NCBI RefSeq assembly: GCF_030913365.1
Contig: NZ_CP133160.1
Coordinates: 3,882,001-3,946,000 of the forward strand
Length of the DNA: 64,000 bases
From: Stenotrophomonas sp. 24(2023)
Lineage (GTDB): Bacteria; Pseudomonadota; Gammaproteobacteria; Xanthomonadales; Xanthomonadaceae
Direction of reading: 5' to 3'
Shown piece after piece: positions 695-64,000 of the stretch. The translations under genes and the position numbers were made by a program. The notes beneath the pieces are model-generated. The model was not told where the DNA came from and did no database searches. It saw nothing but the letters and a program-made list of their open reading frames with translations. Position 1 is the stretch's first letter; every line of letters begins with the position of its first letter.

Positions 695-3652
695 ATGGCT
701 CATTCGTCCCGCCCCCGGCGCCACCTGCTGTCCCATTCCCTGTTGCTGGCCCTGCTGCCGTTGGCTGCCCATGCCCAGCAAGCCCCTGCCGACGCCCCGC
801 AGAACCTCGACACCGTCACCGTCACCGGTTCGCGCATCAAGCGCTCGGCCGTGGAAGGCCCGGCCCCGGTGAACATCATCACCGCCGCGCAGATCCAGAA
901 AGAAGGCTTCGTCACCGTCTACGACATGTTGACCACGCTGACCGAAGCCACCGGCACGGTCGAGGCGCCGTCGCAGTGGGGCTCGCACACGCCCAACGCC
1001 AGCGGCCTGAACCTGCGCGGCATGGGCCCCAACCGCACCCTGCTGCTGGTCAACGGGCGCCGCGTGGCGGATTACCCGCTGCCGTACGGCGGTGAAACCA
1101 ACTTCTCCAACTACAGCAACATCCCGGCCGCCGCCGTCGAGCGTGTCGAAGTGCTGACCGGTGGTGCCTCGGCCATCTACGGCTCGGACGCGATCGCCGG
1201 CGTGGTCAACGTCATCCTCAAGACCCACTACGACGGCGACCAGGTGCGCGTGCGCGGCGGCACCTCCACCGAAGGCGGCCGCGATACCTGGGACCTGTCC
1301 TGGGCCGGTGGCAAGACCGGCGACAGATGGAGCGTCACCTACGCCCTGCAGTACAACAAGCGTGACCCGCTGTTCGGCCGCGACCGTCCGGCGATGGACG
1401 ATGCCGACGACGCGCCGTACGCGTCCTGGAACATGGAGCAGCGCAAGGTCGGCTTCCGTCCCACCACCGGCCTGGCGCTGATCGATTCCAGCACCGGCCG
1501 CCGCCTGGCGCCCCCGGCCGGCACCTGCGAGAAGTTCAACGGCGAGTACTACACCGCTGACCGCCTGGTCTACAACTACGGCACCAACACGGTCAGCAAC
1601 ACCGGCCAGCTGTGCGGCATGACCGCCGACTACGCCAACTGGCTGCTGACCGGCGGCTCGGAAAACGTGTCGGGCAACCTGTATGGCACCTTCGACTTCG
1701 ACAATGGCCTGCAGGCCTGGAGCAACCTGGCCGTCTACCATTCCAAGGCGCTGTGGGGCACCAGCCCGCCGAGCGTGTACCTGGTGGACGATGCCAATGG
1801 CTACTTCTGGGACGCCAACCGCAATGCGCCGCTGATCGGCTCGCGCCAGTTCACGCCGAACGAAGTGGGGGGCCTGAAGAACCTGCGCAATACCAACCAG
1901 GAACTGTCCTTCGACTGGAGTGCCGGCCTGCGCGGCCGCCTGGCCGACCGCTTCGACTGGAGCGCCACCATCGGCCGCTCGTACTACCGCGTGGAAGAAC
2001 GCCAGAACGTGGTCAACAAGCAGAAGTCGTACGACTTCTTCCTCGGCCCGCGCCTGGGCACCACCGCCGACGGCGAAGCCATCTATGCCCTCAACGAGCA
2101 GCGCTGGTGGAACCCGGTCACCCCCGAGCAGTACTGGCAGATGGGTACGGTCGCCAAGAACCGTGCCTCGTCCTACGTCAACCAGGCCTCGGCGGACATC
2201 ACCGGTGACCTGCTGCAGGGCTGGGCCGGCCCGATCTCCTTCGCCGGTGTCGTGGAAGTGGCCAAGCAGGGCTATCAGCTGGGGCCGGACCCGCGTGCCG
2301 GCATCGATTTCGACCTGCAGAACGTGGACCGCGGCGGTGGCGAACGCACCCGCTATTCGGCCGGCCTGGAGTTCAAGATCCCGCTGCTGGAATCGCTGAC
2401 CGCCACCGCCGCTGCGCGCTATGACCGCTACGGCAGCTACAAGGCCAGCGACAGCGCCAACGCGCTGGACATCGGCAGCCAGAAGGAAACCACCTGGAAC
2501 GCGGGGCTGGAATGGCGCCCGTTCGAGACGCTGCTGGTGCGTGGCTCCTATGCCACCAGCTTCCATGCCCCGGACATGCACTACCTGCTGGGCCAGCCCA
2601 GTTCCTCGGAAGTGCAGACCACCGACCGCCTGCACTGCATCCAGAGCGGCGCCTACAAGGTCAACAACTGCGGCGTCGGCAACAACGACGTCTGGTACAC
2701 CTTCGACGTGAACCGCCGTGGCACCCCGTTGCTGCGCCCGGAAACCGGTGATTCGTGGACGGTCGGCTTCGTCTGGGACGTGCTGCCCAATGCTTCGCTG
2801 ACCGCCGATTACTGGGTGATCAAGCTGGAGGACATGATCGTCGACGTGGGGTCGGATGAAATCCTGTCCGCCGAAGCCGGCTGCAAGACCGGCCTGAACA
2901 TCGACGGCACGCCGTGGAGCAATCCCGGTGGCAGCGCCTACTGTGATGGCATCCTGGCGCGGGTGAATCGTGATGCCAACGGCCGCCTGGTATCGATCGA
3001 GCGCGGCCCGTTCAACCTGGCCCAGCGCACGGTGAAGGGCATCGACGTGACCGCACGTTACCGGCTGGACACCAATGCCTTGGGCAACTTCCAGTTCTCG
3101 CTGAACTACACCAACCAGCTGTCGACCAAGGAACAGCGCTACGCCGCCGATCCGAACCCGGAACGCCGTGACCGCGACCTGCGCAGCAAGATCCGCGGCA
3201 GCGTGGCCTGGCAGCTGGGCCGCTGGAACGCGAACGTCTTCGCTGACCGCGTCGGTTCGGTGCCGGGCGTACGCTACCACTGGGGCACCGACCGCCTGGA
3301 CAATCCCGGGGGCTGCCTGCCGTTCGCCGATGGTTACGTGCCCAGCGACAGCCCGTCGGCCAACTGCAGTGAGCCGCTGAACCTGCCCAACGGCGCACCG
3401 AACCCGAACCCGAACGCGGGCAAGTCCACCGAGCGCTATTTCGGTCGCGTCGGGCCGTTCATCACCTGGAACGTCAACGTGGGCTACCAGGTGACCGAGC
3501 ACGCCAAGGTGAACCTGTACGTCAACAACGTGTTCAATTCGGCCAGCTGGAACCACAAGGACCCGTACAAGCTGGACTACGATTTCGCCCCGACCCGCCT
3601 GCTGAGCGCGGTTGGCCGCGAGTTCGCACTGGAATACGTGTTCGACTTCTGA
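695..3652 (+). CDS. TonB-dependent outer-membrane receptor
   Basis: This 985-residue protein is an outer-membrane active transporter powered by TonB-ExbBD. Residues 1-27 form a signal peptide ending AHA before QQAPAD. A TonB-box-like segment LDTVTVTGSRI follows, then the plug domain to about residue 170 with the conserved LNLRGMGPNRTLLLVNGRR and GGASAIYGSDAIAGVVN segments. The remainder is the beta-barrel, ending in the expected aromatic F (EYVFDF). The frame stays open upstream to 545, but the ATG at 695 directly precedes a proper signal peptide and is preferred. The gene lies beside a mannoside degradation locus and carries the same palindromic operator, so an oligosaccharide substrate is likely; the sequence itself does not reveal the ligand. 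Confidence 0.93.
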   Translation: MAHSSRPRRHLLSHSLLLALLPLAAHAQQAPADAPQNLDTVTVTGSRIKRSAVEGPAPVNIITAAQIQKEGFVTVYDMLTTLTEATGTVEAPSQWGSHTPNASGLNLRGMGPNRTLLLVNGRRVADYPLPYGGETNFSNYSNIPAAAVERVEVLTGGASAIYGSDAIAGVVNVILKTHYDGDQVRVRGGTSTEGGRDTWDLSWAGGKTGDRWSVTYALQYNKRDPLFGRDRPAMDDADDAPYASWNMEQRKVGFRPTTGLALIDSSTGRRLAPPAGTCEKFNGEYYTADRLVYNYGTNTVSNTGQLCGMTADYANWLLTGGSENVSGNLYGTFDFDNGLQAWSNLAVYHSKALWGTSPPSVYLVDDANGYFWDANRNAPLIGSRQFTPNEVGGLKNLRNTNQELSFDWSAGLRGRLADRFDWSATIGRSYYRVEERQNVVNKQKSYDFFLGPRLGTTADGEAIYALNEQRWWNPVTPEQYWQMGTVAKNRASSYVNQASADITGDLLQGWAGPISFAGVVEVAKQGYQLGPDPRAGIDFDLQNVDRGGGERTRYSAGLEFKIPLLESLTATAAARYDRYGSYKASDSANALDIGSQKETTWNAGLEWRPFETLLVRGSYATSFHAPDMHYLLGQPSSSEVQTTDRLHCIQSGAYKVNNCGVGNNDVWYTFDVNRRGTPLLRPETGDSWTVGFVWDVLPNASLTADYWVIKLEDMIVDVGSDEILSAEAGCKTGLNIDGTPWSNPGGSAYCDGILARVNRDANGRLVSIERGPFNLAQRTVKGIDVTARYRLDTNALGNFQFSLNYTNQLSTKEQRYAADPNPERRDRDLRSKIRGSVAWQLGRWNANVFADRVGSVPGVRYHWGTDRLDNPGGCLPFADGYVPSDSPSANCSEPLNLPNGAPNPNPNAGKSTERYFGRVGPFITWNVNVGYQVTEHAKVNLYVNNVFNSASWNHKDPYKLDYDFAPTRLLSAVGREFALEYVFDF

Positions 3653-3681
3653 TCCGCACCGCCGATCCTGGCACCCCTGCA

Positions 3682-7518: not shown

Positions 7519-9978
7519 ATGCCCGCGATGCCGACCGTCCCCCTTCGCCCCTTCCGCCGCCCGTTGGCGGGCGTGGCCTGCCTGCTGGCCCTGTCGCTGG
7601 CGCCGATGCTGCAGGCCGCCCCGGCCGCGCTGGAGCGCGAAGTCAACACGTTCATCGGCAGCAAGGACGATGGCAACACGTTCCCGGGGGCTTCGGCGCC
7701 GTTCGGCCTGATCCAGGTCAGTCCCATCGGCAGCCACTATTCGGGCTGGCGCTATGACGATGAGAAGATCCGTGGCTTCGGCCACTCCTTCCTGTCCGGT
7801 GCCGGCTGCTGGGAGCAGGGCGGCCAGGTCTCGGTCCTGCCGGTGACCGGCAGCATCGGTCCCGGTGGCGATTTCGATACCGCCGATGCGAAGGCCTTCA
7901 ACCACAAGACCTACGCCTCGGCCTACACCCACGAGGGCGAGGTCGGCCAGGCCGGCTATTACAAGGTGCGCCTGACCAGCTACGGCGGCATCGACGCCGA
8001 AGCCACCGCCCGCACCCGCGCCGCGGCCGAGCGCTATACCTTCAGCCAGCGCAGCGGCGATGGCCACGTGATGGTCAACGTCGGCCAGGCCAACGAGCGC
8101 CATTCGGTGATCGGCAGCGTGATCGACGTGGTCGGTGACCGTGCCGTGGAAGGCAAGCTGGTCACCAAGAGTTTCTGTGGTGGCCACCAGTACACCACCT
8201 GGTTCCGCATCGAGTTCGACCGCCCGTTCAAGGCCTTCGGTACCTGGGGCGAGGGCGGTGGCCTGCCGGGGGCGCGCCACAGCATGGAAGGCGAGCAGAA
8301 GCCCAATGGTGCCTGGCTGAGCTTCGACCTGGGCAAGGGCCAGTCGGTCACGGCGGTCAGCGCGATCTCCCACGTTGATGCCGAAGGCGCGCGTGCCAAC
8401 CTGCGTGCCGATGGCATGCAGGGGGAGGCGCTGCTGGGCTTTGACCGCATGCGTGGCCTGTCACAGCAGGCCTGGCGCAAGGAACTGGCCGGCGTGCGCG
8501 TGCAGGGTGGCAGCGGTGATGACCGCACCGTGTTCTATACCGCGCTGTACCACGCGCTGCTGCAGCCGCTGACCGGCAGCGATGCCGATGGCCGCTACCG
8601 GGGCTACGACGATGGCATCCACCGTGCCGAGGGCTGGACCTACTACGAGTACTTCTCGCTGTGGGATACCTACCGCGCGCAGAACCAGTGGCTGGCGCTG
8701 ACCCGGCCGGACGTGGCCCGCGACATCGGCCGCACGCTGCTGGCGATCGACGAGCAGGGCGGCTGGCTGCCGCGCTGGGGCTATGCCAACTTCGAAACCA
8801 ACATCATGACCGGCGACCCGGTCACCCCGTTCATGGTCGACCTGTGGCGCTTCGGCGCGCTCAAGGGCCGTGAAGGGCAGGCCTGGGACGCGCTGCGCCG
8901 CAACGCCTTCAGCATGCCGCCGCTGAATTCGCGTCATGCCGGCCGTTCCGGCAATGCCAGCTACCTGGCCAACGGCTATGTGCAGTACGACCGCGCCGTG
9001 CCGTCCAAGGGCATGGATGTCGACCCGCACCACGGCGGCTCGGCCACCCTGGAATACGCGCTGGCCGACTGCGCGCTTTCGCAGATGGCCGTCGGACTGG
9101 GCCACGACCAGGATGCGGCGCTGCTGCGCGAACGCGGCCGCAACTGGCACAAGGTGTGGGACCCCTCGGTACGCGATGCCGAGACCGGCTTCACCGGCTT
9201 CCCGCGGCCGCGTACCGACGGCGGCCCGTGGTACGTGCCGGCCAACGGCCAGTACAGCCCGCGCTCGGACCATGGCTTCCATGAAGGTACCGCCTGGCAG
9301 TACCAGTGGCTGGCCCAGCAGGATGTGCCCGGCCTGGTCGAGGCCATGCATGGGCGTGAGCAGGCGGCCCGCCGGCTGGATACCTTCTTCGCCATGGACG
9401 CGCTGACCGCCGACCCGCTGCAGGCCGCGCGCAAGGAATGGGTGGTGGGCCCGTACAGCTACTACAACCAGTACCGCTACAACCCGAACAACGAGCCGGA
9501 CCTGCACGCGCCGTGGATGTACACGCTGATCGGCCAGCCGTGGAAGACCGCCACCGTGCTGCGTGCGGCCCAGCAGCTGTTCACCAACGCGCCCAATGGT
9601 GTCACCGGCAACGATGACCTGGGCACGATGTCGGCCTGGTACCTGTTCAGCGCGATCGGCCTGTACCCGGCGGTCCCGGGCAGTGGCGAGTTCCTGCTGC
9701 ACACCCCGCGCTTTGCCAAGGTCGAGATCGACATGGGCAATGGCCGCACCCTGCGCGTGGATGCCCCGGGGGCCGACGGCCAGCGCCTGCAGTACGTGCA
9801 GGGCGTGCAGGTCGATGGCAAGGCCCATGCCCCGGTGTGGCTGGACTGGAACCGCCTGCAGCAGGGCCCGCGCGTGCGCTTCGCCCTGGATGCCAAGGCG
9901 CCGGAACAGGGCTGGGGCACCCAGGTGGCCGATCTGCCGGTGTCCTGGTGCGCCGCCCCGGGCAGCGTGCTCAAGTGA
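7519..9978 (+). CDS. GH92-family exo-alpha-mannosidase, exported
   Basis: This 819-residue glycoside hydrolase removes terminal alpha-linked mannose from glycans (the GH92 family is mostly alpha-1,2-mannosidases, calcium-dependent and inverting). Residues 1 to about 34 form a signal peptide, so the enzyme is periplasmic or secreted. The N-terminal beta-sandwich begins with VNTFIGSKDDGNTFPGA, and the C-terminal barrel carries TLEYA (after HHGGSA), NNEPD at residues 657-661 and GNDD at 697-700 before MSAWY. The TLEYA and GNDD segments contain the acid and base residues in characterised members. A downstream ATG at 7528 is a possible alternative start. A hairpin separates it from the lacI gene. 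Linkage specificity cannot be read from sequence alone. Confidence 0.93.
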   Translation: MPAMPTVPLRPFRRPLAGVACLLALSLAPMLQAAPAALEREVNTFIGSKDDGNTFPGASAPFGLIQVSPIGSHYSGWRYDDEKIRGFGHSFLSGAGCWEQGGQVSVLPVTGSIGPGGDFDTADAKAFNHKTYASAYTHEGEVGQAGYYKVRLTSYGGIDAEATARTRAAAERYTFSQRSGDGHVMVNVGQANERHSVIGSVIDVVGDRAVEGKLVTKSFCGGHQYTTWFRIEFDRPFKAFGTWGEGGGLPGARHSMEGEQKPNGAWLSFDLGKGQSVTAVSAISHVDAEGARANLRADGMQGEALLGFDRMRGLSQQAWRKELAGVRVQGGSGDDRTVFYTALYHALLQPLTGSDADGRYRGYDDGIHRAEGWTYYEYFSLWDTYRAQNQWLALTRPDVARDIGRTLLAIDEQGGWLPRWGYANFETNIMTGDPVTPFMVDLWRFGALKGREGQAWDALRRNAFSMPPLNSRHAGRSGNASYLANGYVQYDRAVPSKGMDVDPHHGGSATLEYALADCALSQMAVGLGHDQDAALLRERGRNWHKVWDPSVRDAETGFTGFPRPRTDGGPWYVPANGQYSPRSDHGFHEGTAWQYQWLAQQDVPGLVEAMHGREQAARRLDTFFAMDALTADPLQAARKEWVVGPYSYYNQYRYNPNNEPDLHAPWMYTLIGQPWKTATVLRAAQQLFTNAPNGVTGNDDLGTMSAWYLFSAIGLYPAVPGSGEFLLHTPRFAKVEIDMGNGRTLRVDAPGADGQRLQYVQGVQVDGKAHAPVWLDWNRLQQGPRVRFALDAKAPEQGWGTQVADLPVSWCAAPGSVLK

Positions 9979-9984
9979 GCCATT

Positions 9985-10021
9985 GCCGTGCCGCTCGCAG
10001 GACCCCAGCGAACGGCACGGC
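9985..10021 (+). terminator. Hairpin between GH92 gene and lacI-type gene
   Basis: GCCGTGCCG (9985-9993) pairs perfectly with CGGCACGGC (10013-10021) across a 19-base loop just after the GH92 stop. There is no T-run, so termination is uncertain; it may only reduce read-through. Confidence 0.4.
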
Positions 10022-10076
10022 ACGGCGTGGCCGCGATCCATTAGGCTTGCAGCACCGCTTGGACGCCACGGACACC

Positions 10077-11135
10077 ATGAACGATTCCACCAGCAGCTCC
10101 AAACCCACCCGCAAGGGGGACAACCGCCCGGTCACCGTGACCGACATCGCCCGTGCGACGGGGGTGTCGCGCGCCACGGTGTCACTGGTGCTGCGTGGCA
10201 GCCCCCTGGTCAATGTCGATACCCGGGCACGGGTGGAGGCCGAGCTGCGCAAGCAGCGCTATGTCTACAACCGCGCGGCCGCCAACCTGCGCCGGCGCAC
10301 CTCCAGCAGCATCGCGCTGGTCATCAACGACCTGTCCAACCCGTTCTTCGCCGAATTCGCTTCCGGGGTGGACGAGGCGCTGGGCGGCAAGGGCTATGTG
10401 ACCCTGCTCGGCAGCACCGGCGAATCGCCGCAGCGCCAGCAGGCGGTGCTGACCACGCTGATGGAACACACGCCGGCGGGCCTGATCCTGTCGCCGGCCG
10501 AAGGCAGCCAGGTCAGCGAACTGCGGCAGGCGCTGGGCGCCAATGCCAACGTGCTGCTGTTCAACCGTGAACTGGCCGGGGCGGATTGGGATTTCCTGAC
10601 CCTGGACAACCAGCAGGGGGCCTGGCAGGCCACGCGCCACCTGATCGAGCGCGGCCATCGCCACATTGCATTCTTCGGCGGCCATGCCGATTCCAGTTCC
10701 TGCCACCAGCGCCGTACCGGCTACCAGCAGGCCCTGGCCGAAGCCGGCCTGCAGGTGCGCCCGGAGTGGCTGATCGAATCGGCGCCGAACCGCCTGGAAG
10801 CGGCGGCGCGTACCAGCGAACTGTTCGCCAGCAAGGAACGTCCCAGTGCAGCGGTCTGCTACAACGACACCGTGGCGCTGGGCCTGATGCTGGGCCTGAC
10901 CTCGCGGGGCATCCGCCCCGGCGGCGATTTCGCGGTCACCGGCTTCGATGATATTTCCGAGGCGGCGGTGGCCGTACCGCCGTTGACCACGCTTACCGCC
11001 GACCCGCGTGAACGCGGCCGGCAGGCCGCCGCGCTGCTGCTGCAGCGGCTGGACACCCCCGATGCCCCGCCGACCCGCACCGTCGCCCCCGTGCAGCTGC
11101 GGATCCGCGAAAGCAGTGCCGCCCGACCTACCTGA
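10077..11135 (+). CDS. LacI-family transcriptional regulator of the mannoside locus
   Basis: This 352-residue repressor has an N-terminal helix-turn-helix with hinge (VTVTDIARATGVSRATVSLV, residues 19-38) followed by a periplasmic-binding-protein-like sugar-sensing domain (SSIALVINDLSNPFFAEF onward, with FAVTGFDDI near the C-terminus). A hydrophilic extension of about 18 residues precedes the DNA-binding helices. The ATG at 10077 is chosen because the frame upstream is only shadow of the GH92 gene. It lies between the GH92 gene and the transporter, which points to local control. The palindromes at 573, 7018, 7143 and 7357 are the obvious candidate targets. The inducer is probably mannose or a mannoside, which is inference. 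Confidence 0.9.
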   Translation: MNDSTSSSKPTRKGDNRPVTVTDIARATGVSRATVSLVLRGSPLVNVDTRARVEAELRKQRYVYNRAAANLRRRTSSSIALVINDLSNPFFAEFASGVDEALGGKGYVTLLGSTGESPQRQQAVLTTLMEHTPAGLILSPAEGSQVSELRQALGANANVLLFNRELAGADWDFLTLDNQQGAWQATRHLIERGHRHIAFFGGHADSSSCHQRRTGYQQALAEAGLQVRPEWLIESAPNRLEAAARTSELFASKERPSAAVCYNDTVALGLMLGLTSRGIRPGGDFAVTGFDDISEAAVAVPPLTTLTADPRERGRQAAALLLQRLDTPDAPPTRTVAPVQLRIRESSAARPT

Positions 11136-11176
11136 CCCCCTTCCACCCACCCAACGCATCCAAAGGCGCGCCACGC

Positions 11177-12484
11177 ATGCCGATCTCTTCAACGCCCCTG
11201 TCAACCCGAGGTTCCTCGGCAACGGCGGTCACCCCGCGCGTCGCCCTGGGCGTGGCCACCACGATCTTCTTCATGTGGGGTTTCCTGACCAGCCTCAATG
11301 ACGTGCTGATTCCGCACCTGAAGGCGGTGTTCGAACTGAACTACACCCGGGCGATGCTGGTGCAGTTCACCTTCTTCGGCGCGTACTTCCTGATGTCGCT
11401 GCCGGCAGGGTGGCTGGTGGCGCGGCTGGGTTACAAGAACGGCATCGTGGCCGGGCTGGTGATCGCCGGCGTCGGCGCACTCGGCTTCTGGCCGGCCGCT
11501 GCGCTGCGCATGTACGAAGCCTTCCTGGCCTCGCTGTTCGTGCTGGCCACCGGCATCACCGTGCTGCAGGTGGCTGCCAACCCGTACGTGGCGCTGCTGG
11601 GCCCGGAACAGACCAGTTCCAGCCGGCTGACCCTGGCGCAGGCGCTGAATTCGCTGGGTACCACCCTGGCCCCGCTGTTCGGCGGCCTGCTGATCCTGGG
11701 GACCACGGTCAAGAGCGGCGACCAGATCGATGCGCTGCCGGCCGCCGAGCAGATCGCCTACCGCGCCGCCGAAGCGCAGTCGGTGCAGGGCCCCTACGTG
11801 GGCTTGGCGATCGCGCTGGTGCTGCTGGCCATCTTCGTCTACCTGTTCCGCCTGCCGTCGCTGACCGAGGACACCGAACAGGCCGACACTAGCCACCACA
11901 CCCTGCTGGACGCCCTGCGCGAGCCGCACGTGCTGTTCGGTGTGCTGGCGATCTTCTTCTATGTGGGCGCGGAAGTGTCCATCGGCAGTTTCCTGGTCAA
12001 CTACCTGTCGATGCCCGACATCGGCGGCATCACCGAGCAGCAGGCCACCCACTACGTGTCCGCCTACTGGGGCGGTGCGATGATCGGCCGCTTCGCCGGT
12101 TCCTGGCTGCTGGTACGCTTCTCGCCGCGTCGCCTGCTGGCGTTGTTCGCCGCAGCGAACATCGTGCTGCTGGGGGTGACGCTGATGTCGGCCGGGCAGA
12201 CCGCGGTGTACTGCATCGTGGCCACGGGCCTGTTCAACTCGATCATGTTCCCGACCATCTTCGCGCTTGGCATCGAGCGCCTGGGGCCGCTGACCAGCAA
12301 GGCCTCCAGCCTGCTGATCATGGCCATTGTCGGCGGTGCCGTGCTGCCCCTGCTGCAGGGCGCGCTGGCCGACCACATCGGCGTGCACTACAGCTTCGTG
12401 CTGCCGGTGCTGTGCTACGCCTACATCATTTTCTACGGCCTGGTGGGCTCGCGCCCCCGCGTAGGCAACATCCGCGGAGACTGA
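11177..12484 (+). CDS. FucP/GluP-type sugar:proton symporter (MFS)
   Basis: This 435-residue inner-membrane transporter has about twelve hydrophobic helices. The segment MWGFLTSLNDVLIPHLKAVF and the following FGAYFLMSLPAGWL are typical of the FucP family, which imports fucose, glucose, galactose or mannose with protons; VAANPYVALLGP is also a family hallmark. It follows the LacI-type gene by 41 bases and precedes the kinase by 6 bases, so it is in an operon with the kinase and isomerase genes. From that context the substrate is most likely mannose (or another hexose released by the mannosidases). The sequence alone does not fix the sugar. Confidence 0.9.
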   Translation: MPISSTPLSTRGSSATAVTPRVALGVATTIFFMWGFLTSLNDVLIPHLKAVFELNYTRAMLVQFTFFGAYFLMSLPAGWLVARLGYKNGIVAGLVIAGVGALGFWPAAALRMYEAFLASLFVLATGITVLQVAANPYVALLGPEQTSSSRLTLAQALNSLGTTLAPLFGGLLILGTTVKSGDQIDALPAAEQIAYRAAEAQSVQGPYVGLAIALVLLAIFVYLFRLPSLTEDTEQADTSHHTLLDALREPHVLFGVLAIFFYVGAEVSIGSFLVNYLSMPDIGGITEQQATHYVSAYWGGAMIGRFAGSWLLVRFSPRRLLALFAAANIVLLGVTLMSAGQTAVYCIVATGLFNSIMFPTIFALGIERLGPLTSKASSLLIMAIVGGAVLPLLQGALADHIGVHYSFVLPVLCYAYIIFYGLVGSRPRVGNIRGD

Positions 12485-12490
12485 GGCCAC

Positions 12491-13486
12491 ATGGGAAAGA
12501 TTGTTTGTTTCGGCGAGATTTTGATCGATCTACTCGCCCAGCCGCCGGCATCGCCGGAGACCCCGCGCGCCTTCCTGCAGTATGCCGGTGGCGCGCCGGC
12601 CAACGTTGCCGTGGCCGCCGCCCGGCTGGGGGCGGACACCCAGTTCGTGGGCATGCTCGGCCGCGACATGTTCGGTGACTTCCTGGCCGAGAGCCTGGCC
12701 GAACATGGCGTGGGCACCGACCATATCGTGCGAACCGATGCGGCCAAGACCGCGCTGGCGTTCGTTGCCCTGGACGCCAGTGGCGAACGCAGCTTCAGCT
12801 TCTACCGGCCGCCGGCCGCGGACCTGCTGTTCCGTGACAGCGATTTCCAGCCGGCCAGCTTCGTCGATGCACGCTGCTTCCATGTCTGCTCCAACAGCCT
12901 GACCGAGCCGGCCATCGCCGAAGCGACCTTCGCCGGCATGGACCGCGCGCGCGCTGCCGGTGCCGTGGTCAGCCTGGACCTGAACCTGCGTCCGGCCCTG
13001 TGGCCGGCCGGTGCCGACCCGCTGCCGTGGCTGTGGCAGGCACTGGAACGCGCCGACCTGGTCAAGCTCTCGCGCGAGGAACTGGACTACCTGGCCGCGC
13101 CGCTGGGGGCCGACGGTGATGCGCAGGTGCTGCGCCGCCTGCTGGCCGCACAGGCGCGCTGGGTCATCATCACCGACGGCGCTGCGGCGCTGCGCTGGTA
13201 CACCCGGGATGCACAGGGCAGCGTGCCCAGCTTCCGCGTGGCCACCGTGGACACCACCGCCGCTGGCGATGCCTTCGTGGGGGGCGTGCTGGTCGGGCTG
13301 GTCGAGCGCGGTGGTGCAGGGCCCGGCTTTGCGGCGTTCTGCCAGGATGCCGACGCCATCGCCGGCACGCTGCGCTTTGCCGCCGCTGTCGGTGCACTGG
13401 CCGTCACCCGCAAGGGCGCCTTCGCCGCCATGCCTTCACTTGATGAAGTGCAGCAGCTGCTGCACGCACAGGAACTTACCGCATGA
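12491..13486 (+). CDS. PfkB-family sugar kinase, probable fructokinase
   Basis: This 331-residue cytosolic ribokinase-fold kinase opens with the family signature CFGEILIDLL and GGAPANVAVAAARLG. It carries the second PfkB signature DTTAAGDAF (residues 254-262), where D260 is the expected catalytic base; the usual DTxGAGD has Ala in place of the first Gly. The gene overlaps the isomerase start by four bases (ATGA), so the two proteins are translationally coupled. Since the neighbour makes fructose from mannose, phosphorylation of fructose to fructose-6-phosphate is the sensible assignment. 2-keto-3-deoxygluconate kinase is the main alternative, but no gene of that pathway is present here. Confidence 0.85.
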   Translation: MGKIVCFGEILIDLLAQPPASPETPRAFLQYAGGAPANVAVAAARLGADTQFVGMLGRDMFGDFLAESLAEHGVGTDHIVRTDAAKTALAFVALDASGERSFSFYRPPAADLLFRDSDFQPASFVDARCFHVCSNSLTEPAIAEATFAGMDRARAAGAVVSLDLNLRPALWPAGADPLPWLWQALERADLVKLSREELDYLAAPLGADGDAQVLRRLLAAQARWVIITDGAAALRWYTRDAQGSVPSFRVATVDTTAAGDAFVGGVLVGLVERGGAGPGFAAFCQDADAIAGTLRFAAAVGALAVTRKGAFAAMPSLDEVQQLLHAQELTA

Positions 13487-57459: not shown

Positions 57460-59076
57460 ATGCAGGACACTCCGATGCTGCGCGGCCTGAACGCCCTGCG
57501 TGACGCTTGGCTGGACGCTACCGCAGACAACAGCCGGCGGTTGCTGGTGTGGCGGCTTCCGGCCGCCGCCAGCCGGTTGCTGGCAGCCTTCTTCGAGATG
57601 CAGCGCCATGATGCCGGGCGCGATACACCCGACTTCTTCCTGCGTCTGGACACGGCCTACGAACTGGGCTTCCGTTACAGCCGGCAGCTGAAGCAGGACC
57701 TGCTGGAGCGCTATCTGGCCAGCCAGGAAGAACTGCGTGCCCAGCAGGTGCCGCTGGGGTGGCGCGGGCCGCATGAGGCGCATCCGGACAGCGCACATGG
57801 CGTGGTCGAGGTGCTGGAAAGCTTTGCTGCCCACCATGGTGAGCACCTGCGGCTGCTGGCCGCCGTGCTGGAGCCGGAACGTTGCGTGCCTGGCGAAGGC
57901 TTCGAGCGCTGGGTCGATGCCGCGTTGGCGGCGGGGCCCGGTCCGCGCCTGCGGCTGGTGCTGGTGGACACCGAGGAAGATCCGCGCTGGCAGCCGCTGC
58001 TGGAACGGCATGACAAGGTGGCCCGCATCGTGGGCGCGCCGGTGGACATGTTCGCCATCGCCCGTGACACGGCCGCGCAGTCAGCCGGCCGCGGGCCGCA
58101 GGTCCTGTACCGGCAGCTGCTGGCCGACCTGATGCTGCTGCTCGAACGCGGCAGCCCGGCGCAGGTGGTGGCCCGGGCCGAGCGTGCGCAGGGGCTGGCA
58201 CAGCGCCAGGGCTGGCACGACCAGCATGCAGTGGTGCAGATGATGGTGGCCGGCGCCTGGCTGAAGCACGGTGATCCTGCGCAGGCCATCAACGGCTATC
58301 GGCAGGCGCGCAGCGCCGCCGATGCGGCGCGCATTGCCGGCAATCCGGCGGCGCCGGAACTGGTGATGCAGAGCTGGTTTGGTGAGGCCGGCTGCTGGCT
58401 GGCCGCCAAGCAACCCGAGCGTGCCGCGCAGACCTACCTGCAGGCCGCGACATCGGCGGCAAGCATTCCCCACCCGATGTTCGCGCTGGAAGGCCAGCGC
58501 ATGGCCGGCTGGTGCCTGCTGCAGGCCGGGCAGCGCGAGGCGGCGCGTACCCAGCTGCTGGAGGCCATCCGCATCGCCAAACCGCTCACGCCGGCCGATC
58601 GCAAGGCCACGACCCTGCCGCAGGCCCTGTGGGATGCGCTGCAGCTGCAGGATGCGCGCCGCTGTGAATCGCTGCAGCAGGTGGCCACCGACTACCTGCA
58701 GGCCAGCACGGGCCTGCTTGAGAAAGCCGACGCCCAGGGCCGCGCCCTGGGCCCGCAGCCGCCACGTGCCGCACTGGATGCCATCGATGCGCAACTGGAT
58801 GCCGCGCTGGAGCAGGGCTTCCATCGTGCCCAGCAGGCGCGGGAGCGGCTGGTGCAGGGCGGTGATGAATTCTTCCGCAGGATCGTGGCCGTTGGTCGCG
58901 ATTTCCTCGACGCCGGCTGGAATGGCCTGCCGGCCATCGAGCACCCGCTGGACCATGACGTTCCCATTTGGAGCGAGCCCCCGTCGATGCAGCCGTTGCC
59001 AGACCCGGCCGGCCTGCTGCAGGGGCCATTGCAGGCCGGAAACCCGGCCACCCCGACAGGAGTCGTTGCTGCATGA
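57460..59076 (+). CDS. Unrecognised TPR-containing protein between VgrG and Rhs, candidate T6SS adaptor
   Basis: This 538-residue protein begins 13 bases after vgrG and ends in the start codon of the small membrane peptide. It has no signal peptide. The first about 210 residues (RRLLVWRLPAAASRLLAAFF, later LRLRLVLVDTEEDPRWQPLL) look like a compact alpha/beta domain that I cannot assign. Residues about 230-390 have helical pairs of the TPR type (GDPAQAINGYRQARSAADAA, KQPERAAQTYLQAATSAASI, GQREAARTQLLEAIRIAKPL). A Pro-rich tail closes it. It is unlike the known T6SS loaders (DUF4123, DUF1795/Eag, DUF2169). Position suggests it loads the Rhs protein on VgrG; this is inference. Confidence 0.75.
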   Translation: MQDTPMLRGLNALRDAWLDATADNSRRLLVWRLPAAASRLLAAFFEMQRHDAGRDTPDFFLRLDTAYELGFRYSRQLKQDLLERYLASQEELRAQQVPLGWRGPHEAHPDSAHGVVEVLESFAAHHGEHLRLLAAVLEPERCVPGEGFERWVDAALAAGPGPRLRLVLVDTEEDPRWQPLLERHDKVARIVGAPVDMFAIARDTAAQSAGRGPQVLYRQLLADLMLLLERGSPAQVVARAERAQGLAQRQGWHDQHAVVQMMVAGAWLKHGDPAQAINGYRQARSAADAARIAGNPAAPELVMQSWFGEAGCWLAAKQPERAAQTYLQAATSAASIPHPMFALEGQRMAGWCLLQAGQREAARTQLLEAIRIAKPLTPADRKATTLPQALWDALQLQDARRCESLQQVATDYLQASTGLLEKADAQGRALGPQPPRAALDAIDAQLDAALEQGFHRAQQARERLVQGGDEFFRRIVAVGRDFLDAGWNGLPAIEHPLDHDVPIWSEPPSMQPLPDPAGLLQGPLQAGNPATPTGVVAA

Positions 59077-59201
59077 CGTCGAAGAAAACCGTGGTGATGG
59101 TGCTGGCCATCGTGCTGGGCATCATCGTCGTGACCTGGATCAGCGCCGAATACCGTGACGAAGTAAAGGCGTTCCTGCGCGCATTGTTCCGCGCCTTGTA
59201 G
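59073..59201 (+). CDS. 42-residue single-pass membrane peptide
   Basis: The ATG at 59073 overlaps the preceding stop by four bases (ATGA). The 42 residues consist of a short basic start MTSKK, one hydrophobic helix (VVMVLAIVLGIIVVTWI) and an amphipathic end (EYRDEVKAFLRALFRAL). Tight coupling on both sides (the Rhs gene starts 19 bases after its stop) argues that it is real. It might anchor the adaptor or effector to the inner membrane or provide partial self-protection; the role is unknown. Confidence 0.7.
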   Translation: MTSKKTVVMVLAIVLGIIVVTWISAEYRDEVKAFLRALFRAL

Positions 59202-59220: not shown

Positions 59221-62200
59221 GTGAGCATTGCCGCCAAGCATTTCGATCCGCAGCTGGGCATCGACATCCACATGTACGCGGTGCCGCCGTGCCCGCTGCC
59301 GACGCCGCACATCGGCCTGGTACTGGACCCGTTCGACTACATCCCGTTCATCGGTTCGACCACCAAGGTGGGCGGTGTGCACCGGGGCACCGCCGGCACC
59401 GGCGGCCTGGACATCCACATTCCGCTGGGCGTGTGGGGCCCGCCATTGGCGGCGCCGATGGGCCCGCAGTTCGACGGCGAAGAGATCTTCATGGGCAGCC
59501 GCACGGTGTCGGTCGATGGCGAGCCGTTCTCGCGGCTGGCCATGCCGGTACTCGACTGCAACCTGGCCGGCATGATCAACCCGTTCCGGGTGAAGAAGCC
59601 GAAGAAGCCGCTGCGTGCCATGTCGCTGCCGACCGGGCTGAACGTGGCCATTCCCACCAACGTGACGGTCGGTGGGCCGCCGACGGTGTCCTGGACCGCA
59701 CTGGCCTTCCGCGCGGCATTCGCCGGCTTGGGCAAGCTGCGCAAGAGCGCGTTCTTCCGCAGGAAGATGGATGCTTTCGCCAACTGGCGGCGTGGCAAGT
59801 GGGGGCATCTGCCGTCGGGCTTCCTCAAGTGCAAGGTGCTGCGTGCCGAGCCGGTGGACATCCGTGATGGCAGCGTGGTGGTCAGCCACCAGGACTTCGA
59901 CATTCCGGGGCGGCTGCCCTTCGCCTGGCAACGCAGCTATGGCTCACGCCGCGCGGGCGAAGCGGGCCAGTGCGGCTTGGGCTGGCAGACGCCGGCAGAC
60001 CTCTATCTGGAACTGCTGGACGACGGCAGCGTGTGGCTGTCCGGCCCGGACCAGGTCGCCTTCTTCCCCGAACTGCCACCGGCCGAGGGCGAAGCCGGGG
60101 CGATCCTCGATTTCGTGGACGGCGCGCGGCTGCTGCGTCGTCGCGGGCAGTGGTGCGTGCGTTTCAAGAGCGGCCTGCAGTATGTGTTCGGCGGTGAACT
60201 GCCTGCGGGTGTAAGCGCGCTGCCGAATCCACAGTCGTGGCCGATCGAGCGCATCGAGGATGCCCACGGCAATCACTGGCGTTTCGAGCGCCGCGACGGC
60301 CACCTGGTCCGCATCGTCGAAAGCGGACTCGGCGATCTGCAGGGGCGTTTCATCGAGGTGGAGGCCCGCCAGGGCCGCATCGAGCGGATGGCGCTGCACG
60401 ACCCCGCCACCGGTCTTGCCCATCCGCTGGTGAGTTACCGCTACAGTCATGATGGTGACCTGCTGGCTGCGGTGGACCCGCTCGGTGCGCCGCGCACGTT
60501 TGCATATGAGCAGCACCGCCTGGTGCGGCATACCGACCGTGTGGGCCTGTCCTTCCATTACGCGTTCGATGCGCAGGGCAGGGTGGTGCACTCGTGGGGG
60601 GATGGCGGGCTGTACGACTACCATTTTGCCTATGACGCGCTGCTGCGTGAAACCCGGGTGACCGACTCGCTGGGCCACCTGAGTGTGGTCAAGTTCGACG
60701 AGAACCAGCTGCCGCTGTGCGAGATCGATCCGCTCGACGGGGTCACGATCTTCGAGTACGACGACTTCGGCCGGACCGTGGCCGTGACCGATCCGGAGGG
60801 GCTGCGCACGGCATTTGCCCATGATGCGCATGGCAACCTGGTGTGCCTGACCCGCGCCGACGGCAGCACGGTGCAGATGGAGTACGACGCGCAGGACCGC
60901 ATGGTGTCCCTGCGTACGCCCGATGGCAGCGACTGGCGGCAGGACTACGATGCGCGTGGCCTGCTGATGGCGCAGATCGATCCCCTTGGTGCCACCACGC
61001 GCTTCGACTACGACGCGCAGGGTCAACTGCTGGCCCAGACCAATGCGCGGCAGGCGGTGACTCGGCTGCGCTACGACCGTCATGGTCTGGTGGCGGCGGT
61101 GATCGATGCGCTGGGCCATGAAAGCCAGTATGCACACGACCCGCTGGGCAACCTGCAGCAGCAGGTGGACCCGCTGGGCCAGATCTCCCGCTATGAGTAC
61201 GACGCCAAGGGGCGGCTGCTGGCCACGCTGGGACCGGACGGTGCCGGTGTGCGTTGCGAGTACGACGCCGAAGACCAACTGCTGCGCTATAGCGATGAGG
61301 CCGGTGCGCAGACGCGACTGCAGTACGTGGGCATCGGCCAGATCGGCAAGCGCCTGCAGGCTGACGGCCATACCGTCGAGTATCGCTATGACAGCGAAGA
61401 GCAGCTGGTGGCGGTCATCAACCAGCGCGGCGAGACCTACCAGCTGGTGCGCGATGCGCTGGGCCGCATCGTCGAGGAGGTGGACTACTGGGGGCAGTCA
61501 CGGCGCTACACCTACGATGCTGCCGGACGGCTGACGGCCACGCTGGACCCGTTGGGCCAGCGCATCGCCTTCACTACCGACAAGCTTGGGCGCATCACCC
61601 GCAAGACGCTGCCGGACGTGCGCCATCCCGGCCAGCAGGTCCAGGAGCATTTCGTCTACGACACGCAGGGGCAGATCGTCGAGCTGCGCAATCCGGCACG
61701 TACCGTGAAGCGGCGTTACGACCCGGTGGGGCAGTTGCTGGAGGAACTGCAGGATGGCTTCCGCGTGGGCTATGCCTACGACGAAGTAGGTAACCGTGTG
61801 CTGCGCGAGACTGCTGCCGGCAATCGTGTGGCGTTCGGTTATGACCTGCGTGACCAGGCCGTCTCAGTGGCCATCAATGACGAGCCGCCGATCACGATCG
61901 AGCGTGATGCGCTGGGTCGTGCCACACGCGAGCAGCTCAGTCCGCAGTTGCAGCGCGAGTTCACCTACGACAGCCGCAACCTGCTGACGTCGCAATCGGT
62001 GCTGAAGGACGCTGCACCGCTGTTCGAGACGCGTTACGACTACGACCGCAGTGGCAACCTGACCCGTCGTAGCGACAGCGCCCAAGGTGTGGACGAGTAC
62101 CGTTACGATGCGATCGGACGCCTGCTGCAGCACATCGACCCGAAGGGCAGGGTCGAGCGCTACTTCAGCGATCCGGCCGGCGACCGCCTGCGCACCGAAG

Positions 62201-63804
62201 TGAAGCAGGTGCAGGCGCGCAAGGTGGTGGGCGGTGACGATGACGACCTGAGTACGTGGACGCGCGAAGGAACCTACCAGGGCACGCACTACGTGTTCGA
62301 CCGTGCCGGTGACCTGGTGCGCAAGGGCGTGCCGCACGGCGACGCGCCGGATGACCTGACGCTGATCTGGGATGCCAACCATCGTTTGGCGGAGAGCCGC
62401 CGCAACGGGCAATCAACGTACTACGGCTATGACCCGCTGGGACGGCGGGTGTTCAAGCGCAACCCGGCGCAGACGACGTGGTTCTTCTGGGATGGCGATG
62501 CGTTGCTGGGTGAGGTGCCGCAGGCCAACGATGCCGAAGAGGCAGCGCCGGTCTGGGTGGGGAACGTGGCCAGCCTGGTGGAGGTGAGGCGTCGGCAGCG
62601 GCGGCTGGAAAAGCTGCATGAACGGGTGCGGGAGTATGTGTATTACCCGGGGACGTTTGTGCCGTTGGCGTTGGTCGCTGATCGCACTCCTGATGAAATG
62701 GGACCCATGGAGGCCTCATCGGCAACCTGTGACCCGTCTCTTCCTCGTTTTCAGGAGACAGAACTGCATGAAAGCAAACAGCGACCGGGTAACAGCAAAG
62801 CGCTGCAATCTGGGGCGGCTGGTGGCCAGCAACGTTCTGCTGGTCTAGGTAGTGCCGCTCTGGTGCTGGGCACGGCGAAGCTGTCGACCTCTACCCAGCT
62901 AGAGGTATCATCTGATGGAGCGGGGGGCCTTGGCAGCATCACTCTTGGTACTCCAGTGGCAAGGGGAAGTCTAAAGAGGTCCGCTTCTCCTGATGAGGCG
63001 GCGCCAACGACGCCAGATCACCGCGTGTCCGACGTTCCGGGACCTATCAGTTGTCCGCCCTCCCACGTGTTCCTGTATGTCAGCCATGTGAACGGGTGTC
63101 CGTCCAGATTGCTGGGAGGTAATGGATCAGTCCTGTGGCGCGCCGACCATAGTCCTTGGGGCGCTGGATCGCCGAGTCTGGAGCTGCTCACGAATCCGCT
63201 GAGGCTTCCTGGTCAGTACGAGGACGTAGAAACGGGCCTCAATTACAATCGATACCGGTACTACGACTCCGCGCTCGGTGCGTATATAGGTCAGGATCCG
63301 ATTCGCCTCCGCGGTGGAATCAACACATACGCCTACCCTGTGAATCCACATCGCTGGATTGATCCATGGGGATTGATCTTGGGCGAGGTTGCTGATGCTG
63401 CCCCAACCACGCCGGGCATCTATCACATTGAACTCGACGGCGAGTACTACACGGGTAGTGGCGTGAACATCAGGGATCGAATCTCTGATGCCAATCATCC
63501 AGCGAAGGATCTACTGAACAATCCTGATGTTACGATCACCACGTACCCCGTGGATCTCGGCAGTGCGGCCGGCGATACGCGCATGACAAATCACGTTCTG
63601 CGGGGTTACGAACAGGGGATTATGGATGCAGCAAACAATGTGCCTAAAGAGGGGGGCTCACTGAATCAGATTCGTGCAGCCCGTGTGGCCCGGGTGGACG
63701 AGTTCGCCGAGGATGCCCTGCGGCACGCAGCAAGCCGTGGGGCGGGTGTCGTTAGCAATCCGGCCACGAGGGCTGCTGTTTCTGCAGCTAGAAACGCTTG
63801 CTGA
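59221..63804 (+). CDS. PAAR-like/Rhs polymorphic toxin with predicted GIY-YIG (URI) nuclease tip
   Basis: This 1527-residue effector starts at GTG 59221. Residues 1 to about 160 form a PAAR-like tip domain that would cap VgrG (FDPQLGIDIHMYAVPP, HRGTAGTGGLDIHIP). A DUF6531-like segment (QDFDIPGRLPFAWQRSYG) at about 225-240 is followed by many YD/RHS repeats to about residue 1150, which build the toxin-holding shell. The conserved closing motif PHRWIDPWGL is at 1376-1385, where Rhs proteins cleave. The last 142 residues are the variable toxin: GIY at 1399-1401, YTG at 1410-1412, R1418/R1420 and E1464 fit a GIY-YIG nuclease. A Ser/Ala-rich insert at about 1158-1281 interrupts the shell. Confidence 0.88.
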   Translation: MSIAAKHFDPQLGIDIHMYAVPPCPLPTPHIGLVLDPFDYIPFIGSTTKVGGVHRGTAGTGGLDIHIPLGVWGPPLAAPMGPQFDGEEIFMGSRTVSVDGEPFSRLAMPVLDCNLAGMINPFRVKKPKKPLRAMSLPTGLNVAIPTNVTVGGPPTVSWTALAFRAAFAGLGKLRKSAFFRRKMDAFANWRRGKWGHLPSGFLKCKVLRAEPVDIRDGSVVVSHQDFDIPGRLPFAWQRSYGSRRAGEAGQCGLGWQTPADLYLELLDDGSVWLSGPDQVAFFPELPPAEGEAGAILDFVDGARLLRRRGQWCVRFKSGLQYVFGGELPAGVSALPNPQSWPIERIEDAHGNHWRFERRDGHLVRIVESGLGDLQGRFIEVEARQGRIERMALHDPATGLAHPLVSYRYSHDGDLLAAVDPLGAPRTFAYEQHRLVRHTDRVGLSFHYAFDAQGRVVHSWGDGGLYDYHFAYDALLRETRVTDSLGHLSVVKFDENQLPLCEIDPLDGVTIFEYDDFGRTVAVTDPEGLRTAFAHDAHGNLVCLTRADGSTVQMEYDAQDRMVSLRTPDGSDWRQDYDARGLLMAQIDPLGATTRFDYDAQGQLLAQTNARQAVTRLRYDRHGLVAAVIDALGHESQYAHDPLGNLQQQVDPLGQISRYEYDAKGRLLATLGPDGAGVRCEYDAEDQLLRYSDEAGAQTRLQYVGIGQIGKRLQADGHTVEYRYDSEEQLVAVINQRGETYQLVRDALGRIVEEVDYWGQSRRYTYDAAGRLTATLDPLGQRIAFTTDKLGRITRKTLPDVRHPGQQVQEHFVYDTQGQIVELRNPARTVKRRYDPVGQLLEELQDGFRVGYAYDEVGNRVLRETAAGNRVAFGYDLRDQAVSVAINDEPPITIERDALGRATREQLSPQLQREFTYDSRNLLTSQSVLKDAAPLFETRYDYDRSGNLTRRSDSAQGVDEYRYDAIGRLLQHIDPKGRVERYFSDPAGDRLRTEVKQVQARKVVGGDDDDLSTWTREGTYQGTHYVFDRAGDLVRKGVPHGDAPDDLTLIWDANHRLAESRRNGQSTYYGYDPLGRRVFKRNPAQTTWFFWDGDALLGEVPQANDAEEAAPVWVGNVASLVEVRRRQRRLEKLHERVREYVYYPGTFVPLALVADRTPDEMGPMEASSATCDPSLPRFQETELHESKQRPGNSKALQSGAAGGQQRSAGLGSAALVLGTAKLSTSTQLEVSSDGAGGLGSITLGTPVARGSLKRSASPDEAAPTTPDHRVSDVPGPISCPPSHVFLYVSHVNGCPSRLLGGNGSVLWRADHSPWGAGSPSLELLTNPLRLPGQYEDVETGLNYNRYRYYDSALGAYIGQDPIRLRGGINTYAYPVNPHRWIDPWGLILGEVADAAPTTPGIYHIELDGEYYTGSGVNIRDRISDANHPAKDLLNNPDVTITTYPVDLGSAAGDTRMTNHVLRGYEQGIMDAANNVPKEGGSLNQIRAARVARVDEFAEDALRHAASRGAGVVSNPATRAAVSAARNAC

Positions 63805-63819: not shown

Positions 63820-64000
63820 ATGAATAATAAAGTTATTTTGCTGCACAGCAGGAACGAAGCGGCGTTCCCGACGCCGGGAGCTGAGCTGGTGTTCTTCAAC
63901 GCTCCCTTCAATAGCGAAAAGCTTGCAAAAATACAGCAGGCTCACCTTTGGTCACCTCCCGGCGACAAACTTGAGGAGCTGCCAGAGATGCTCAGGGAGA
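63820..64000 (+). CDS. Probable immunity protein for the Rhs toxin (3' end outside window)
   Basis: An open frame starts at ATG 63820, 15 bases after the toxin stop, with GAAGAG as ribosome site, and runs to the window edge (60 codons). The visible start is MNNKVILLHSRNEAAF, followed by PGAELVFFNAPFNSEKLAK. I do not recognise the family. Position straight behind the toxin, low G+C (88 of 180 bases in 63781-63960 by hand count, about 49%) and A/T-rich start are what is expected of a cognate immunity gene acquired with its toxin. It is too incomplete for further statements. Confidence 0.6.
   Translation, partial: MNNKVILLHSRNEAAFPTPGAELVFFNAPFNSEKLAKIQQAHLWSPPGDKLEELPEMLRE

Follow-up and report, generated by a model that had tools for sequence, protein, structure and literature searches.

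Reviews name DUF4123, DUF1795, DUF2169, DUF2875, and PRK06147 as families of adaptors or chaperones of the type VI secretion system (T6SS). Class I prePAAR-Rhs effectors carry a transmembrane domain (TMD) between the prePAAR motif and PAAR, and an Eag chaperone shields this segment (PMC7773334). TPR-repeat proteins have also been reported near orphan VgrGs of Lysobacter enzymogenes C3 and Dyella japonica, where the available text assigns them no role (PMC6653060). The closest described locus belongs to the seed-borne strain Stenotrophomonas rhizophila CFBP13503 and has the order vgrG6, tap6, paar-rhs-tse6 (PMC13340143, published in 2026). Tap6 is a 59.5-kDa hypothetical protein that was named an adaptor by its genomic context and was detected in the cell proteome, and loss of V6 lowers the killing of a Plantibacter strain (PMC13340143).

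The window analyzed here, i.e., the whole stretch of 64,000 nucleotides from a Stenotrophomonas-like genome of 4.52 Mb, contains a locus that resembles the tap6 region. The published masses of 81.7, 59.5, and 172.2 kDa (PMC13340143) compare with 81.6, 59.0, and 168.4 kDa for the respective window proteins. Judged by gene order and mass, Tap6 (WP_181406191.1) is probably an orthologue of the TPR protein encoded in the window. As far as comparative sequence analysis can tell, the latter is probably a dedicated T6SS loading protein of a distinct family. The literature searched, which covered few subscription papers and was in part available as excerpts, yielded no description of this TPR family, of its fold, or of the small membrane peptide (MP) encoded next to it.

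Organization of the locus

In the earlier note, vgrG, the TPR gene, a 42-residue peptide, and a PAAR-Rhs gene had been described as tightly packed. Reading of the ORFs bears this out, with a gap of 12 bases, an overlap of 4 bases, and a gap of 19 bases between successive genes (Table 1). The TPR ORF starts with ATG and has GGAGG upstream. GGAG precedes the MP ORF, whose ATG overlaps the stop codon of the TPR gene as ATGA in the window, and the start codon of the PAAR-Rhs ORF is GTG.

Table 1. Features of the vgrG-TPR-MP-Rhs locus, with positions given in the window.
Feature	Position	Strand	Basis
vgrG (TssI), 747 aa	55204..57447	+	TIGR03361 E 5e-161; Phage_GPD E 8e-81
TPR adaptor candidate, 538 aa, long form	57460..59076	+	ORF; AF2 mean pLDDT 90.2, pTM 0.82
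TPR protein, N-terminal alpha/beta domain, residues 1-212, predicted AAA+/STAND-like, without Walker A	57460..58095	+	AF2, Foldseek, motif scan
TPR superhelix, residues about 213-383	58096..58608	+	Profile matches and AF2 model
TPR protein, C-terminal helical extension and tail, residues about 399-538, missing in the short form	58654..59073	+	AF2, locus comparison
MP, 42-aa single-TM peptide with charged C-terminal segment	59073..59201	+	ORF; kept in 30/33 long-form loci
PAAR-Rhs effector, 1527 aa	59221..63804	+	RHS_repeat E 1e-76; Rhs_assc_core E 3e-21
Rhs prePAAR-like/PAAR-like tip region, residues about 1-125, without insert	59221..59595	+	Alignment A5; weak PAAR matches
Rhs variable C-terminal toxin domain	63376..63804	+	Sequence past DPWGL motif
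Candidate immunity ORF, runs off the window	63820..64000	+	Position only

Distribution and gene neighborhood

Protein searches detected the TPR protein in 13 of 198 Xanthomonadaceae genomes, and profile searches in 3 of 369 genomes sampled at the class level and 4 of 398 at the phylum level, the genome of the window being counted in each. Searches that started from two divergent members recovered it from 12 of 200 genomes in the family of G865 and from 10 of 99 in the family of G711. The former family is taken as Burkholderiaceae on the basis of matches between its members and records named Burkholderia or Caballeronia; the latter appears to be Enterobacteriaceae and is called enterobacteria-like below. 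Named matches comprise plasmid records of Variovorax, Burkholderia, Caballeronia, and Paraburkholderia, and in the two plasmid records inspected the TPR gene is annotated as a hypothetical protein. One vgrG-TPR-Rhs module resides on a Burkholderia ubonensis plasmid that was typed as conjugative (L074; NZ_CP013369.1), and the module may therefore move between strains. No DNA match was obtained in 20,395 E. coli records, which were searched at the DNA level with one enterobacteria-like member as the query. The module also occurs on a contig titled Bacillus subtilis (L022; JAHREJ010000013.1), whose TPR protein and VgrG are 76% identical to those of the window; this assembly is probably mislabelled or contaminated. 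Besides the long form of the TPR protein, a short form of about 410-440 aa exists that has no C-terminal extension. Two enterobacteria-like genomes, G1130 (L065/L071) and G1141 (L067/L070), each contain a long-form plus a short-form module.

Gene neighborhoods were compared in 50 loci, namely 49 tabulated loci and the outlier L033. Also left out of the table were the frameshifted copies in G1151 (L061, L069, and L072), a fragment in G1009 (L058), the duplicates L023 (equal to G163) and L025 (equal to G043), copies under further identifiers, and the plasmid matches H2/H9, H4/H7, and H5/H8, the first of which shares the coordinates of G1009. Two of the tabulated rows are imperfect, because the TPR gene is frameshifted in L024 and split over two contigs in L014 (G080). 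A PAAR-Rhs gene of the same family lies directly downstream of the TPR gene in 49 of the 50 loci and vgrG directly upstream in 46, counts that are not independent, as many of these loci are close relatives. The homologues were thus not located mainly away from vgrG and rhs genes, a distribution that would have spoken against an adaptor. In G080, vgrG was seen on another contig (L013). Three loci (L055-L057) have the Rhs gene and gave no vgrG match upstream, longer stretches (L117-L119) having been searched as well. The outlier L033 (positions 2308-3654) encodes a distant TPR homologue with 21% identity, whose gene stands apart from vgrG and rhs genes; its genome (G248) gave five matches to the T6SS sheath protein VipB.

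Two of the TPR-Rhs pairs without vgrG adjoin a repeat-bearing stretch and ORFs (L117, positions 8360-10792; L118, positions 9967-13008); the upstream repeats and ORFs look like those of a CRISPR-Cas locus. In G1009 (L057/L118), a stop near the start interrupts the Rhs gene, and the second, decayed TPR fragment mentioned above is found close by.

Family assignment and predicted fold of the TPR protein

The absence of DUF4123, DUF1795, and DUF2169 from the TPR protein of the window, as claimed in the earlier note, was confirmed, with no match at E values up to 1; the same holds for DUF2875 (Tla3). None of the three former domains appears among the 25 of 35 families listed for 37 TPR homologues, and DUF4150 was not matched by profile search in the window module or the Rhs N-termini. 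At the genome level, profile searches (E up to 0.001) did not find DUF1795 (PF08786) in 12 and DUF2169 in 10 of the 13 TPR-positive Xanthomonadaceae genomes, both sets including the window's own; G080 does have matches to both domains. Homology to a classical adaptor was thus not found: none of the named families tested showed the clear relationship that would have contradicted a new family.

Profile matches of the single protein to TPR families are weak. Pfam TPR_2 is matched at E 2e-4, below its cut-off, and NCBIfam LcrH_SycD is matched by residues 306-374 at E 4e-6, with a score of 26.5 bits where the cut-off is 104.8. A sequence profile (A3) matches designed TPR proteins at 2e-7, and the AlphaFold2 (AF2) model, which was computed from a 37-sequence alignment, has a helical repeat superhelix. 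In the predicted order, the alpha/beta domain (residues 1-212) comes first and the TPR helices (about 213-383) second; two long helices then lead to a tail that is disordered in part. A structure search with the full model retrieved the TPR proteins Rap and kinesin light chain as well as the STAND-TPR protein 6mfv. From model, structure search, and profile match, the protein is assigned to the TPR superfamily.

The N-terminal domain modelled alone (residues 1-215) reached a pLDDT of 91.5. Its best Foldseek match in the PDB has an E value of 0.0022, none being at or below 0.001, and TMq ranges from 0.24 to 0.51 among the 50 matches listed. Despite these weak E values, all 50 are P-loop NTPase proteins by title, mostly AAA+ or STAND, and include ORC/Cdc6, TnsC, Apaf-1, CED-4, and Avs4. 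The Walker A motif GxxxxGK[ST] is absent from the N-terminal domain in 38 of 38 alignment rows; the sole occurrence in the rows scanned, at position 261 of L064, is inside the TPR part. This domain is therefore probably inactive as an ATPase, and we regard it, by prediction, as a degenerate AAA+/STAND-like domain. The first 210 residues, which according to the earlier note resembled no known adaptor, thereby have a predicted fold.

Association with one type of Rhs effector

Co-occurrence was analyzed with the first 250 residues of the window Rhs protein as the query. This N-terminus was detected in 13 of 13 TPR-positive and 0 of 185 TPR-negative Xanthomonadaceae genomes (198 searched) and in 10 of 10 TPR-positive and 1 of 89 TPR-negative genomes of the enterobacteria-like family, with Fisher tests, which ignore kinship, giving 1e-20 and 7e-13, respectively. 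The single TPR-negative match (G1193) is weak (E 4e-4) and concerns a more distant Rhs protein, and its locus (L116) gave Rhs matches only. VipB was found in 12 of 13 TPR-positive versus 33 of 185 TPR-negative Xanthomonadaceae and in 24 of 25 other TPR-positive genomes; it was not matched in two module carriers, the draft genome G504 and the 86% complete G080. These data bear on the question whether the TPR protein could be a general factor of T6SS assembly or spike maturation, comparable to the Tvp proteins or TslA. The usual position of its gene right after vgrG would suit such a factor, and spike assembly can depend on a number of accessory proteins, as Tvp complexes demonstrate (PMC13373197). 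However, the TPR protein tracks the Rhs N-terminus and not the T6SS, as the 33 VipB-positive Xanthomonadaceae of the sample that lack it illustrate, and L055-L057 keep the Rhs gene without an adjacent vgrG. A general role is thus improbable.

One TPR gene can serve as neighbor to several effectors. G048 has five PAAR-Rhs genes behind a single set of vgrG, TPR gene, and MP, and in G043 and G015 one such set precedes two PAAR-Rhs genes each. The TPR protein of the window is 87-89% identical to those of five S. maltophilia-type loci, whether they share the window's toxin (L023) or have another one (L015, L016, and L020); identity is 89% at L016, with an unrelated toxin, and 87% at L023, with the same toxin. 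Since the toxins change and the TPR protein remains this similar, the pattern fits an adaptor rather than an immunity protein, and covariation of the TPR protein with the toxin domain was not found in the loci compared. TPR/Sel1 proteins beside rhs genes have been labelled as immunity proteins in EHEC and Salmonella (PMC7216683, PMC11669294). For the protein studied here such a function was rejected and is hardly conceivable: the gene is located upstream of the effector, it is kept across unrelated toxins, and a single copy precedes up to five effectors.

Thus, the TPR protein shows the context of an adaptor, being encoded beside vgrG and effector and tied to the effector N-terminus. The proposal of the earlier note that it is a distinct adaptor gains support from the lack of homology to the adaptor families tested and from its location at PAAR-Rhs genes in nearly all loci. 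The adaptor interpretation is well supported by this comparative evidence and has been anticipated in part by the name Tap6.

The toxin ends of 17 Rhs proteins, including four of the five in G048, are mostly unrelated, and 5 pairs match at E values up to 1e-3. L017 was cut by the script at an internal motif, and its toxin is outside this comparison. Among the 16 other ends compared, the window toxin domain matches only that of L023. It contains 'GIYHIELDGEYYTGSGVNIRDRI', which has the appearance of a GIY-YIG nuclease motif, and has no Pfam match in this region (63376-63804). Pieces with 83-90% identity to the window toxin end lie downstream of Rhs in L016 (15045-15158), L017 (16513-16818), and L020 (15036-15236), where they look like displaced toxin cassettes of these S. 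maltophilia-type loci.

The membrane peptide and the effector insert

Profile support for calling the Rhs N-terminus a PAAR region is weak, with PF05488 matched in 1 of 28 members at E 0.05 and PDB chain 4jiv_D at E 0.48. The N-terminus of the window effector reads AAKHFDPQLGIDIH, where 7 residues separate D from H, and contains no insert. It thus differs from the clients of Eag chaperones (prePAAR class I), which have AARxxDxxxH and a TMD in cis before PAAR.

MP is encoded at the corresponding position of 30 out of 33 long-form loci (28 identified by script; L062 and L067 by reading) and in 0 of 16 short-form loci. It consists of a positively charged N-terminus and a TM stretch, whose 19-residue Kyte-Doolittle maximum is 2.19-2.82 in the 28 peptides measured, followed by '..EYRDEV.AFLRAL.RAL', in which a pattern of the type E.R.FLRAL.RAL is conserved. 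The short length of 42 codons could indicate a chance or coupling ORF without a functional protein product. In line with such an ORF, 120 pairs from 16 loci show a modest codon-position bias, with 1660/1113/1917 differences at positions 1/2/3, and amino acid changes exceed silent changes in distant pairs. Yet place, length, and motif are similar in 30 loci from at least two bacterial families, down to 32% identity, which makes a chance ORF very unlikely.

In the short-form loci, the effector has an insert between the segment HLDPVVGVDVH...PHPHVG and the remaining PAAR-like region (alignment A5). The distance between the anchors is 64-111 residues in 11 short-form loci versus 17 in 21 loci with MP. 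Five further short-form loci also have the insert, as read by eye, and none was seen in the 29 readable loci with MP, the 30th (L040) being cut by a contig end. Several inserts show Gly/Ala-rich stretches. Their highest 19-residue hydropathy is 1.06-1.64 in the 11 loci, 10 of which fall under 1.6, the usual cut-off for TM segments. On sequence grounds, the insert is hydrophobic and an unproven candidate TM segment. It is perhaps also the source of matches to a citrate-transporter model, which were obtained for 2 of 28 Rhs N-termini (best E 6e-4). A strict swap of MP for the insert was rejected. Three loci have no MP although they belong to the long form, namely L032 (504 aa, with a shortened tail and counted as long form), L034, and L073; the first two have no insert either, and that of L073 is shorter, less hydrophobic, and unlike a TM helix.

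The earlier note regarded MP as a possible membrane tether; in this reading, it would sit in the inner membrane and fix the adaptor, and hence the effector, at the T6SS membrane complex. The clear TM stretch, the positive N-terminus, and the start that overlaps the TPR stop in the window are in agreement with this idea. However, all 16 short-form loci as well as L032, L034, and L073 have no MP, so that the adaptor family needs no tether, and the short-form replacement sits in the effector and not in the adaptor. We therefore consider a tether rather unlikely. MP and insert appear to be alternative states of most loci, a pattern that is suggestive and fits a detached membrane segment of the effector at least as well as a tether. 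The presence of MP is explained by three changes on the adaptor tree, which was calculated without the C-terminal extension and carries long-branch warnings; so few changes make the alternation a hint rather than strong statistical evidence. Given where class I prePAAR-Rhs effectors carry their TMD, the layout of the present loci suggests that MP may correspond to this segment, supplied in trans. A possible, still tentative model is a split effector, in which MP would be the detached membrane segment of the PAAR region, shielded by the extension of the pseudo-AAA+/STAND TPR chaperone, loaded onto the spike in trans, and common to several Rhs toxins.

Proposed function

TPR domains are generic protein-binding scaffolds. 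The TPR protein most likely binds the PAAR-like N-terminal region of the effector in the cytoplasm, and this contact would involve the AAA+/STAND-like domain and the TPR superhelix. It would then hand the effector to the VgrG encoded alongside. Long-form proteins probably use their helical extension to keep the hydrophobic MP bound and soluble until spike assembly. Taken as a whole, we find it likely that the protein is a dedicated, toxin-independent adaptor or chaperone for one class of T6SS PAAR-Rhs effectors, which would bind the PAAR region, deliver the effector to VgrG, and hold MP.

If this is true, a further adaptor family with an ATPase-like fold lacking Walker A exists across Xanthomonadaceae, Burkholderiaceae, and an enterobacteria-like family. 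Such a family would serve as a new marker in the search for Rhs toxins. The pair of adaptor and MP would offer a direct test of how toxins cross membranes, namely whether a translocation segment is functional when supplied in trans.

Comparison with known systems

TPR-type chaperones for secreted proteins are known from type III secretion (LcrH/SycD), but the match of the window protein is far under the cut-off of that family and confined to the TPR part. TslA is a TPR protein linked to the T6SS, of i4b clusters; unlike the proposed adaptor, it is a periplasmic localization factor (PMC10434147). In the Tvp/DUF2169 systems, several accessory proteins cooperate as partners to load a PAAR-like tip onto VgrG (PMC13373197), which resembles the role suggested here, whereas the window module has neither DUF2169 nor DUF4150. 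The predicted order of an AAA+/STAND-like domain and a TPR superhelix is the same as in STAND/AAA+ ATPases with TPR sensors (PH0952, PDB 6mfv). In contrast to these ATPases, the window protein has no Walker A motif and is set in a T6SS operon.

The Eag chaperones (DUF1795) are similar in that their gene is directly upstream of the PAAR-Rhs effector and that they are dedicated to its N-terminus (PMC7773334). They are mainly beta proteins, however, whereas the TPR model is mixed alpha/beta plus all-helical and has no DUF1795 match. Moreover, Eag clients carry their TMD in cis (PMC7773334) and the window effector does not. The available text on Tap6 gives this protein no family or fold and makes no mention of a small peptide (PMC13340143). 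Thus, the adaptor label is already known from Tap6, and new here are the TPR adaptor family, its predicted pseudo-AAA+/STAND fold, and the apparent alternation between MP and the effector insert.
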